A DNA stretch of 64,000 nt from Pararcticibacter amylolyticus (GTDB lineage Bacteria; Bacteroidota; Bacteroidia; Sphingobacteriales; Sphingobacteriaceae), in NCBI RefSeq assembly GCF_003130405.1, contig NZ_QEAS01000005.1, positions 95,318 through 159,317 on the forward strand, written 5' to 3'. Each line of letters starts with the position of its first letter. The first letter of the stretch is position 1. The translations under genes and the position numbers were made by a program. Shown here one piece after another: positions 60,128 to 62,802 of this stretch. The notes beneath the pieces were generated by a model. The model made no database searches, was not told where the DNA came from, and was given only the letters and a program-made list of their open reading frames with translations.

Positions 60128-60182
60128 CCGGCATAAAGCGGAGATCCTATACAGAGGTCAAAGCTTTATGCCGGTCTTTTTT
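60128..60182 (+). terminator. Intrinsic terminator after purT
   Basis: CCGGCATAAAGC (60128-60139) pairs exactly with GCTTTATGCCGG (60163-60174), followed by TCTTTTTT. The loop is 23 bases. It overlaps the 3' end of the convergent WYL regulator gene. Confidence 0.8.
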
Positions 60183-61203
60183 CGGGAATCTCCTGGTAAC
60201 ATTCCAATGCCTTCCTGAGGTTTTCCCTGATCTTTTTTACGAGGATCCTCGGACCCAGAACTTTTAATCTGCAGCCAAAGCCTAATAACTCACGCTCCAA
60301 CTCGTAGTTCAGCACAACGCGGATACTGAACACCTTACCATCTGCATTCTCAGTTAACAACTTTTGCGTATGATGAAGAGGTTTTGTTATCACGTATGGT
60401 GCATTTTCATGATCTACCTGGAACACTACTTCGCAATCGCTCTGCTTGGGAGACTTGGTAACCCCAATCAGATTTGAATAGTAGGTCGATAAGTCGACCT
60501 TGGTATTAGGCCTGTAGGCCTCTCCTGAATCGGGTTCAATGCTGATGATCCGGTCGAGCGCCAGCGTCAGCAATGGTGCATTTCTCTGGTGTGAGCTGCA
60601 AAGTACAAACCAGCGGTTCCGGTATTCCTTCAGTAAATAGGCGCTGATGCAAAAAGTACTTGCCTGCCGGGCTTTAAATGACTGGTAAGTGATGCACAGC
60701 GCCGTTTGAGAAATAATGGATTTCCTGATCACTTCTATAAATTCCAGGCCTTTCAGGTTATCATTCTTTTCAAAATCGATCACCGGTGCCGCTGCCGTTT
60801 TTTGCACATATATTTTATCTTCAAGTTTGCTTATCATTTCATTCACATCCGTAAAATGGCTGAAGCCTTTAAATTGCTTCAGCAGATCTGCCACCTCTGT
60901 AAGCACCTGCATATCCTGATTGGTTAAGGGGATATTCGTAATACTGTAATTCTTGTCTGAATAGGTATAGAATTTTTTATCCACGACAACAATCGGAGCC
61001 TCATACCCCAGTTTATTGCTGCGCATCATTTCTATATCAGCTTGTACCGTCCGCCGGCTTACACCCTTATCTATTCCCTGGAATTCATAAAGCGCATCTG
61101 AACATGCTTCTATCAGGTCATCAAGCGTCCACTTCTTGTATTTATGACGGAGACAATTGTCGATAGTCCGGTAACGGATAAGAGCATTGCGGTTAACAGG
61201 CAT
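60166..61203 (-). CDS. WYL-domain transcriptional regulator
   Basis: The 345-residue protein has an N-terminal helix-turn-helix (about 1-65, TLDDLIEACSDALYEF and the RRTVQADIEMMR recognition region), a WYL beta-barrel domain (about 145-225, AYLLKEYRNRWFVLC with LALDRIISIE), and a C-terminal WCX extension (about 250-335). WYL domains bind nucleic acids or nucleotide ligands. The gene is divergent from the RtcB-type ligase, with 96 bases between starts, and is the likely regulator of that gene. The intergenic region holds a CGCAA/TTGCG inverted repeat. Confidence 0.88.
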   Translation of the reverse strand: MPVNRNALIRYRTIDNCLRHKYKKWTLDDLIEACSDALYEFQGIDKGVSRRTVQADIEMMRSNKLGYEAPIVVVDKKFYTYSDKNYSITNIPLTNQDMQVLTEVADLLKQFKGFSHFTDVNEMISKLEDKIYVQKTAAAPVIDFEKNDNLKGLEFIEVIRKSIISQTALCITYQSFKARQASTFCISAYLLKEYRNRWFVLCSSHQRNAPLLTLALDRIISIEPDSGEAYRPNTKVDLSTYYSNLIGVTKSPKQSDCEVVFQVDHENAPYVITKPLHHTQKLLTENADGKVFSIRVVLNYELERELLGFGCRLKVLGPRILVKKIRENLRKALECYQEIPEKRPA

Positions 61204-61244
61204 AGAATAAAAATTTTCAGAAAAATATTAAAAAAAAGCTACTG

Positions 61245-61259
61245 CGCAAAAACATTGCG
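61245..61259. promoter_or_regulatory. Inverted repeat between WYL regulator and RtcB
   Basis: CGCAA (61245-61249) and TTGCG (61255-61259) form an inverted repeat with a five-base spacer, in the middle of the 96-base divergent region. A symmetric site here could be the operator of the WYL regulator. The short arms make chance possible. Confidence 0.35.
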
Positions 61260-61270
61260 TACCAGCCCTG

Positions 61271-61278
61271 TTATTTTG
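61271..61278 (+). promoter_or_regulatory. -7-like box of rtcB
   Basis: TTATTTTG lies 21 bases before the chosen start and differs from TAnnTTTG at the second base. It supports the start at 61300 rather than 61144, since the upstream reading would begin before this box and inside the regulator gene. Confidence 0.45.
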
Positions 61279-61299
61279 AATCGTCAAATAATAAAATTC

Positions 61300-62754
61300 A
61301 TGGAAAAGGAAAAGATCAGCAACGCGGAGATCAGCGCTTTAGGGGTAACCGAACTGGAATTACTGGTAAGCTTTAGCCGTGTCGCCAATGGTTTGTTGAA
61401 ACACAATGTAATGCCTAAGGAAATAATCCTGGCAAACCTTGAATCATTGATAGACGATCCCATGCCCTATGCTTTGAAAAAAGGGGGTAAGTTTAAGAAT
61501 CTCGCTGAAAAAGTTATCGAACTTCGTAAAGAAGGAAAGTTTGTAAAACAGCAGCGCAGCAACCATATATTAAGAGAAGCATTGATAGACTTTCCGGTTT
61601 TTGGAAAGGATCATATAGAAACCGGGGCCCTGGGGCAAATGAACACTGCTATGAAATTGCCCGTATCGGTGGCCGGGGCCCTGATGCCTGACGCTCATCA
61701 TGGATATGGATTACCCATTGGAGGTGTTTTGGCCACCAGGATTGATACGATTATCCCTTATGCCGTTGGTGTGGACATCGCCTGCCGGATGTGCCTGAGT
61801 ATTTTCGATCTCCCTGCAGAAACGGTTGATACCGAAAAAGAAAAACTTAAGAAGTTATTGACGGATCATACCGTATTCGGGATGGGAGGGGTAACTAAAA
61901 GTTATCATGACGCATCCTTATTTGATCATCCCGAATGGGAAGCAACCAAAGTGATCAGGTCCTTAAAAAATAAGGCCTATACACAGTTAGGGACTTCTGG
62001 CACAGGGAATCATTTTGTGGAATGGGGAGAATTGACAGTTTCGGATAATGTCCTGGATGGAATACCGGCAGGAAAGTATCTGGCTCTCCTGTCGCACTCT
62101 GGCTCCAGGGGATTTGGGGGAAGCATCGCCAGCCACTATTCGGAAATAGCTATGAAGAAAACGGAACTTCCGCCGGAAGCGAAACACCTGGCATGGCTGG
62201 ATATGGGTACGGAAGAAGGACAGGAATACTGGATTGCGATGAACCTTGCCGGAGAATATGCTTCTGCAAACCATCATGAAATTCATAATAAAATTTCCAA
62301 AGCACTCAATCTGTCTCCGGTTATGCGTATTGAAAATCACCACAATTTTGCATGGAAAGAAAGCCTGGCTGACGGTACTGAAGTGATGGTGCACCGTAAG
62401 GGGGCTACCCCGGCCGGCAAAGGGGTATTGGGGGTGATTCCTGGTTCGATGAGTACCCCGGGATTTGTAGTTCGCGGGAAAGGAGAGACAAGTTCTATCA
62501 ACTCCGCTTCACATGGTGCGGGAAGGTTAATGAGCCGGAGCGCTGCTTTCAAAACGATCAGGAAAGAGCTTGTGGAAGCTGAATTAGCCGATAAGAAAAT
62601 TACTCTTTTAGGTTCCGACCTGGATGAAGCTCCGATGGTATATAAGGATATTCATGCGGTAATGGCGGCTCAAACTGATTTGGTAGAGGTACTGGCATCT
62701 TTTCAGCCGCGTATTGTGAAGATGGCCGATCCTAAAGAAAGGCCGGAAGACTAG
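61300..62754 (+). CDS. rtcB: RtcB family RNA ligase
   Basis: The start at ATG 61300 gives 484 residues; a longer reading from 61144 would overlap the divergent regulator by 60 bases. RtcB metal ligands are all present: Asp159 and Cys162 in VGVDIACRM, His238 in GTGNHF, His266 in LSHSGSRG, His347/348 in ENHHNF. The guanylylated histidine is His405 in SASHGAGR. It joins RNA 3'-phosphate or 2',3'-cyclic phosphate ends to 5'-OH ends with GTP. The usual DIGCGM reads DIACRM here, so it belongs to a divergent subclass. Linked to a WYL regulator, it may be part of an RNA-repair response. Confidence 0.92.
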   Translation: MEKEKISNAEISALGVTELELLVSFSRVANGLLKHNVMPKEIILANLESLIDDPMPYALKKGGKFKNLAEKVIELRKEGKFVKQQRSNHILREALIDFPVFGKDHIETGALGQMNTAMKLPVSVAGALMPDAHHGYGLPIGGVLATRIDTIIPYAVGVDIACRMCLSIFDLPAETVDTEKEKLKKLLTDHTVFGMGGVTKSYHDASLFDHPEWEATKVIRSLKNKAYTQLGTSGTGNHFVEWGELTVSDNVLDGIPAGKYLALLSHSGSRGFGGSIASHYSEIAMKKTELPPEAKHLAWLDMGTEEGQEYWIAMNLAGEYASANHHEIHNKISKALNLSPVMRIENHHNFAWKESLADGTEVMVHRKGATPAGKGVLGVIPGSMSTPGFVVRGKGETSSINSASHGAGRLMSRSAAFKTIRKELVEAELADKKITLLGSDLDEAPMVYKDIHAVMAAQTDLVEVLASFQPRIVKMADPKERPED

Positions 62755-62769
62755 TTCTCGTAATATTTT

Positions 62770-62802
62770 CAGCTGCACAAAACACTGCGCAGCTGTTTCT
62801 CT
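62770..62802 (+). terminator. Hairpin after rtcB
   Basis: CAGCTGC (62770-62776) pairs with GCAGCTG (62789-62795), followed by TTTCTCT. The stem is seven bp with a 12-base loop. It is a moderate terminator for rtcB. Confidence 0.6.

Follow-up and report, generated by a model that had tools for sequence, protein, structure and literature searches.

A DriD-like WYL/WCX protein as the probable activator of a divergent rtcB and of other RNA-repair genes in Bacteroidota

We analyzed a 64,000-nucleotide stretch of the Pararcticibacter amylolyticus genome (contig NZ_QEAS01000005.1, positions 95,318 to 159,317; hereafter the window), in which genes for a WYL/WCX transcription regulator and a variant RtcB RNA ligase are divergently encoded. 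The regulator gene (60166-61203, minus strand) encodes 345 amino acids comprising a winged helix-turn-helix (wHTH), a three-helix linker modeled with low confidence, a WYL domain, and a WCX domain. Matches to WYL (PF13280, E 1.1e-9) and WCX (PF25583, E 1.4e-10) both exceeded the Pfam cutoffs; together, an N-terminal wHTH, a WYL domain, and a C-terminal WCX domain place the protein among the WYL/WCX factors. The rtcB gene (61300-62754, plus strand) encodes a predicted 3'-phosphate/5'-hydroxyl RNA ligase of 484 amino acids, which matched PF01139 with 282 bits (E 1.2e-83); other RtcB proteins in the phylum sample described below reach up to about 600 bits. In alignment with P. horikoshii RtcB, the motifs GVDIAC, GTGNHF, HSGSR, HHNF, and HGAGR are kept (at residues 157, 234, 266, 347, and 405, respectively), and we take these to supply the metal-binding Cys and His residues and the guanylylated His. 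By its sequence, the protein is a non-canonical member of the RtcB family with catalytic motifs retained. The longest open reading frame (ORF) for rtcB starts at 61144, within the regulator gene. Because homologues begin with MEKEK(I/V)SN, which corresponds to 61300 here, we placed the start at that position, leaving a spacer of 96 bp (61204-61299). An original prediction, made from the window alone, had described a WYL regulator facing a variant RtcB across 96 bases, and the ORFs, the domains, and the spacer all agree with that description.

The same prediction drew attention to a CGCAA/TTGCG inverted repeat between the genes. Both arms are present (61245-61249 and 61255-61259), although a repeat with 5-bp arms is of little meaning by itself; the real element is a longer conserved one of which these arms are the core. 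This predicted operator, CTGCGCAAAAACATTGCGTAC (61242-61262, no strand assigned), consists of half-sites CTGCGCA and TGCGTAC around the spacer AAAACAT and conforms to the consensus STRCGCA-N7-TGCGYAS. The spacers of the related loci introduced below have CTGCGCA-N7-TGCGCAG in common, with an A-rich, oriented N7 segment, and the window copy differs from it by two mismatches. In the whole 6.3-Mb assembly, STRCGCA-N7-TGCGYAS has two matches, one in the window and one on contig C91, compared with 0 in a backward-read control and approximately 0.2 to 0.4 expected from base composition.

WYL genes are not rare (the window genome holds five), and chance neighbors flanking a chance repeat could produce such an arrangement. 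Regulator and operator were both compared across genomes. Among 61 genomes of the same family, one clade of WYL proteins separated by score in 11 (at least 569 bits versus at most 336 for the rest), while RtcB relatives were present in 20 of the 61. In a phylum sample of 395 genomes, profile scores split into an upper group of at least 425 bits (43 genomes), which we joined with one gene truncated at the edge of its contig (319 bits), and a lower group of at most 311. The upper group (44/395 genomes) was taken as the clade, and flanking DNA was retrieved for these 44 loci and for 33 lower-scoring control loci; contig ends limit the stretch to 4 to 10 kb at five control loci and one clade locus. 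The search profile had been built from ten proteins picked for nearness to RtcB, three of which are in the 44. Repair genes were labeled by phmmer with Pfam-checked queries (RtcB, TROVE, Band_7, RlaP, PNKP ligase, Hen1_L, RNA_lig_T4_1, HAD_PNKP, and Hen1_N). The ORF caller, in which the longest ORF wins, is crude and missed the RtcB of L054; loci without a WYL ORF call (L242 among the controls; L075, L096, and L128 among the named relatives below) were left out of the linkage counts.

Comparison supports both the clade and its linkage to RNA repair. A repair gene lies within 8 kb of the regulator in 36/44 clade loci, upstream and divergent in 35 of them, versus 1/32 control loci (Fisher p 8.5e-13), the sole control match being Pnkp-like (L234). 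Without the three profile-building loci the linkage is 33/41 (p 4e-12), and in a named collection, from which the best 80 relatives were fetched, it holds in 70/77 loci for which a WYL ORF could be called; these named relatives are Bacteroidota. The clade loci contain RtcB (n = 28), TROVE (n = 13), RlaP (n = 7), Rnl1 (n = 6), kinase-phosphatase (n = 5), SPFH (n = 5), Hen1 (n = 2), and Pnkp (n = 1) genes. The repair gene types thus vary beside the clade regulator, and the regulator is therefore the constant element while the repair chemistry differs. Three linked RtcB proteins that we compared are only 26 to 31% identical to one another. A regular expression for the five RtcB motifs is satisfied by 53 of the 90 full-length RtcB proteins in the loci, a flavobacterial example failing four of the five, and thus no activity is claimed for those that fail. 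The WYL-rtcB pairing, whose frequency in Bacteroidota had been proposed as a check, is accordingly not unique to this genome, as RtcB stands near the clade regulator in 28/44 loci.

The operator follows the same distribution. With at most two mismatches and an N7 spacer, it lies no more than 400 bp ahead of a WYL or repair gene in 33/44 clade, 73/80 named, and 1/33 control loci. Looser counts, allowing spacers of 6 to 8 at any position, are 40/44, 76/80, and 6/33; at least one of the matches so counted, in L201, is due to chance. Operators stand upstream of RtcB, TROVE, RlaP, Hen1, SPFH, and Rnl1 genes, and additional copies precede TROVE, RlaP, Hen1, Rnl1, or RtcB genes within the same loci. 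Linkage, operator, and the promoter spacing described next are all far above their controls and contradict chance association, to which we assign next to no probability.

To define the promoter context, we collected 109 operator sites before repair genes (RtcB, 63; TROVE, 31; RlaP, 8; Hen1, 6; SPFH, 1), which reduced to 76 after removal of near copies. TTTG is found exactly 12 bp downstream of the operator in 94/109 sites (66/76 non-redundant), and TTTG at the spacing of a -33 box is found in 0/76. The window site has the same arrangement, with the TTTG of a predicted rtcB -7 box at 61275-61278 (plus strand), exactly 12 bp past the operator, and no TTTG at the normal -33 spacing. The -7 box of Flavobacterium psychrophilum, TAnnTTTG, spans -12 to -5 (PMC9723704; here and below, literature statements follow excerpts of the cited sources). 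On that register the operator would lie at about -41 to -21, over the missing -33 box. On this register, 46% of sites have the A of TAnnTTTG, so the -7 box appears to be weak as well.

Such an overlap with the rtcB promoter is also what a repressor might show. WYL repressors of defense genes are known (PMC11888443 and PMC4012209), two such proteins, BrxR and CapW, are among the structural matches of the window regulator, and a CapW/BrxR-like protein could block the rtcB -33 region and come off when a ligand binds. We consider this improbable: a -7 spacing fixed at 12 (66/76) without any -33 box (0/76) is the pattern of an activator-dependent promoter, and the best fold match is the activator DriD, with which the clade shares a 7-N7-7 geometry.

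On the regulator side, a TTTG within the operator (61247-61250, minus strand) is a -33 box candidate for the promoter of the WYL gene itself, with TATTTTTC (61220-61227, minus strand), 19 bp from it, as the candidate -7 box; both are sequence assignments. The operator TTTG points toward the WYL side in 68/75 WYL-facing sites and likewise in 39/46 sites without a WYL gene. A TAnnTT box at 17 to 22 bp, in contrast, accompanies 52/75 WYL-facing sites versus 9/46 others. This excess makes autoregulation plausible, and the WYL protein probably limits its own synthesis through the overlap of the operator with its candidate -33 box.

We further searched for the composite motif (operator, 12 bp, TTTG) genome-wide. 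Across the 395 genomes there were 26 matches (25 sites, one matching on both strands) in 20 genomes, compared with 2 in the backward control. All 20 genomes belong to the 44 that carry the regulator; the other 351 contribute none (hypergeometric p 8e-22). Because the motif was partly learned on loci of these genomes, the independent part of this result is the absence elsewhere together with the sites distant from the regulator. Without the TTTG requirement, the operator occurs in 33/44 clade genomes, with 69 forward sites (summed by eye) versus 5 backward. In the family sample, 9/11 genomes with the clade regulator have the degenerate operator. Four close relatives of the window RtcB (62 to 81% identical; G011, G012, G041, and G050) occur in genomes without the clade regulator, and no operator match was found there.

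Of the 26 composite matches, 7 are not beside the regulator, and three of these precede RtcB or TROVE. In G357, whose WYL gene has no repair neighbor, the distal site stands before RtcB on another contig. In G384 it lies approximately 55 kb away, before TROVE, and in G431 approximately 370 kb away, before TROVE with two RlaP genes beyond. The distal site of G014, in which the WYL gene again lacks a repair neighbor, precedes a PD-T4-7-like protein (L260:5948-6910), after which come DUF6922 and AbiEii-type genes; anti-phage genes may thus be part of the regulon. The distal sites of G276, G261, and the window genome (contig C91) precede genes without an assigned name.

These results bear on the proposal that the WYL regulator controls rtcB through the repeat. 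Linkage, a conserved operator, fixed spacing, and co-occurrence of site and regulator by genome now stand behind that proposal, with the longer operator in place of the short repeat, and its binding element stays a prediction from sequence. Direct control of rtcB by the WYL protein through the predicted operator is thus well supported by comparison, and activation is its likely direction.

The case for activation draws on a predicted structure of the regulator (mean predicted local distance difference test score [pLDDT] of 81.5, lower in the linker), which consists of helices over residues 5 to 61 plus a wing, followed by the linker and a WYL barrel. DriD ranks first among its structural matches, with a Foldseek E of 2e-15 along almost the full length. 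The template modeling (TM) score of 0.47 and the large root mean square deviation of this match reflect different placement of the domains; over the WYL-WCX part, the Z score is 17.0 across 190 residues, with BrxR and CapW next (Z about 11 to 13). By sequence the relationship is faint: phmmer retrieved nothing from the PDB for the window regulator up to E 0.1, a profile search found DriD weakly (E 1e-4), and identity in the structural alignments is 16 to 18%. DriD is a WYL activator that is itself activated by single-stranded DNA (ssDNA), and its site, ATACGAC-N7-GTCGTAT, overlaps the -35 region at a constant distance from the -10 box of promoters with poor -35 boxes (PMC12340889). The modeled window regulator resembles DriD in its succession of wHTH, three-helix linker, WYL, and WCX. 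Clade sites likewise combine a 7-N7-7 pseudo-palindrome with overlap of the -33 (or -35) region, a fixed distance to the -7 box, and a weak -33 box. This DriD-like geometry makes activation the best reading. The half-sites, however, differ (CTGCGCA versus ATACGAC), as do the apparent targets, which are RNA-repair genes in the clade and didA, bapE, recJ, and dnaG for DriD. A second WYL activator, the mycobacterial PafBC, is also activated by ssDNA and fits itself in between promoter DNA and domain 4 of sigma (PMC11804915). As proposed for the clade regulator, PafBC works at the -35 region, in its case by sigma adaptation; unlike the clade regulator, PafBC is a heterodimer with a -26 motif and a DNA-damage regulon.

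Because ssDNA activates both PafBC and DriD and the modeled fold is DriD-like, the regulator could answer DNA damage, with RNA repair as one arm of the response. This alternative is about the signal alone and would leave activation intact. We regard it as rather unlikely, since the recognized operator-bearing genes belong to RNA repair and no DNA-repair gene was noticed in the neighborhoods viewed by eye, in an unscored inspection. In addition, the residue preceding the LDR motif (Ala215) is Ala in all 97 aligned clade sequences versus Arg in DriD, a weak argument given that 77% of 31 paralogues also have Ala. With Ala in place of the DriD Arg, the ligand is not readable from the family. The RNA damage products suggested in the original prediction are candidate ligands.

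Taken together, we consider it probable that the WYL protein is a dedicated, DriD-like activator of RNA-repair genes, in the role that RtcR has elsewhere. We infer that a dimer would bind the pseudo-palindrome at 61242-61262, in the place (about -41 to -21) where rtcB lacks a -33 box, and would help RNA polymerase use the weak -7 box; at the same site it would overlap the regulator's own candidate promoter. The trigger is probably a nucleic-acid-like damage product acting through the WYL pocket. In related genomes, RtcB, TROVE/Ro60, SPFH, RlaP, Hen1-Pnkp, and Rnl1-type repair genes seem to be under the control of this regulator and site, distally as well.

Several observations weigh against this interpretation. 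The ten profile members were selected because they are near RtcB, the structural model has a predicted TM score of only 0.53, and one half-site of the window operator departs from the consensus. Eight of the 44 clade loci have no recognized repair gene within 8 kb, in 11/44 no N7 operator immediately precedes a WYL or repair gene, and 11/44 clade genomes yield not one exact degenerate match. Viewed from RtcB, linkage is the minority case: RtcB is present in 173/395 genomes but near the clade regulator in only 28. The spacing is 13 rather than 12 in 12/12 sites of a further set, counted by eye. Finally, a single degenerate match occurs in each of 6 of the 50 family genomes that lack the regulator (G001, G028, G045, G051, G052, and G057), and that of G001 has TTTG at +12. 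The G051 and G052 matches are intragenic and were put down to chance.

RNA repair in enterobacteria is controlled by RtcR, the sigma-54 activator of rtcBA, and the RtcR-controlled operon of Salmonella also holds rsr, a Ro60 orthologue. The window regulator resembles RtcR in being a dedicated regulator encoded adjoining rtcB. RtcR, however, carries CARF and AAA+ domains and acts at sigma-54 promoters (PMC7790460), whereas Pfam detected only WYL and WCX in the window regulator, with no CARF or sigma-54 AAA+ domain, placing it outside the RtcR family, and the rtcB promoter has a sigma-A-like TTTG box. In literature searched by title and abstract start, we found no description of a Bacteroidota counterpart of RtcR for RNA repair. 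The Aravind group has put forward the general idea that cyclic-ended RNA may be sensed by WYL factors and that some of these regulate RNA repair (PMC9503650). WYL activators and RNA-repair operons are thus known kinds; as far as searched, and with priority not settled, the dedicated pairing, the operator, and the regulon are new. A 2016 survey by Burroughs and Aravind may mention such neighbors.

A broader proposal, which we hold tentatively and lean slightly against, is an "RNA SOS" in which one WYL clade and one operator, acting in cis and in trans, form the shared master switch of repair routes that differ in chemistry (RtcB, Hen1-Pnkp, Rnl1/kinase, TROVE, SPFH, and RlaP) across many Bacteroidota and are triggered by broken RNA. 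The trigger might be, for example, 2',3'-cyclic-phosphate or tRNA fragments in a WYL pocket that lacks the DriD arginine. A single regulator with a readable operator offers a handle on the whole RNA-repair regulon, its operators point toward unrecognized repair genes, and the clade permits a direct test of WYL sensing where the damage may be to RNA and not DNA.

The window genome encodes a second RtcB (contig C1:516901-518055), 48% identical to the window RtcB and accompanied by a PrfH-like gene, which resembles the described RtcB2-PrfH module (PMC9223846). Unlike the window pair, this module has no exact operator and no WYL gene in the 3.8-kb stretch examined. We rejected it as a regulon member because exact operators in the assembly are confined to the window and contig C91. 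In the window itself, the neighbors are AHSA1, ArsR-type, and purT genes, with no PrfH gene adjoining rtcB. A search found no TROVE gene in the window genome. Rfam scans at gathering thresholds gave no match in the window and, across eight related loci, only two thiamine pyrophosphate riboswitches; they thus revealed no Y RNA or tRNA-like partner.

Between rtcB and the convergent AHSA1 gene, positions 62770-62795 carry CAGCTGC...GCAGCTG followed by a T-rich run. This element is probably a terminator, and its likeness to the operator (with a 6-base spacer) is probably due to chance. The C91 site (C91:1113-1149) is the genome's only other composite site. It lies upstream of a 302-amino-acid protein with no Pfam or PADLOC match and near PDC-M62A/B-like candidate defense genes. 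Three control loci (L219, L222, and L240) have 7-N7-7 palindromes with other half-sites near a paralogous WYL gene, as expected if every WYL group reads its own palindrome; a specificity code is possible. A search of a viral collection returned 13 stretches with the composite motif. By eye, most of these fall within unrelated genes and have no A-rich spacer, and two (L296 and L299) look more like real sites; we claim no phage link.

Individual genomes show further variations. G006 carries two clade WYL genes on contigs C11 and C19 (L043 and L262) with near-identical operators, one adjoining RtcB and TROVE and the other adjoining Hen1, Pnkp, and RlaP; a second RtcB in this genome (contig C23, L042) has neither a WYL gene nor an exact operator. 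In G046 (L057:5234-5864), RtcB is reduced to a C-terminal remnant, and the clade WYL gene, a partial TROVE gene, and the operator are still there. A 746-amino-acid protein without a confident family (L187:10003-12240; copies in L310, L315, and L316) occurs near the regulator in 7/44 clade loci, often behind an operator, and is a candidate for a new RNA-repair component. The operator sites of L312, L313, and L314 are surrounded by genes for a 189-amino-acid protein that carries the motif KFDGTS and looks ligase-like by eye, a 261-amino-acid protein, and exonuclease-like proteins.

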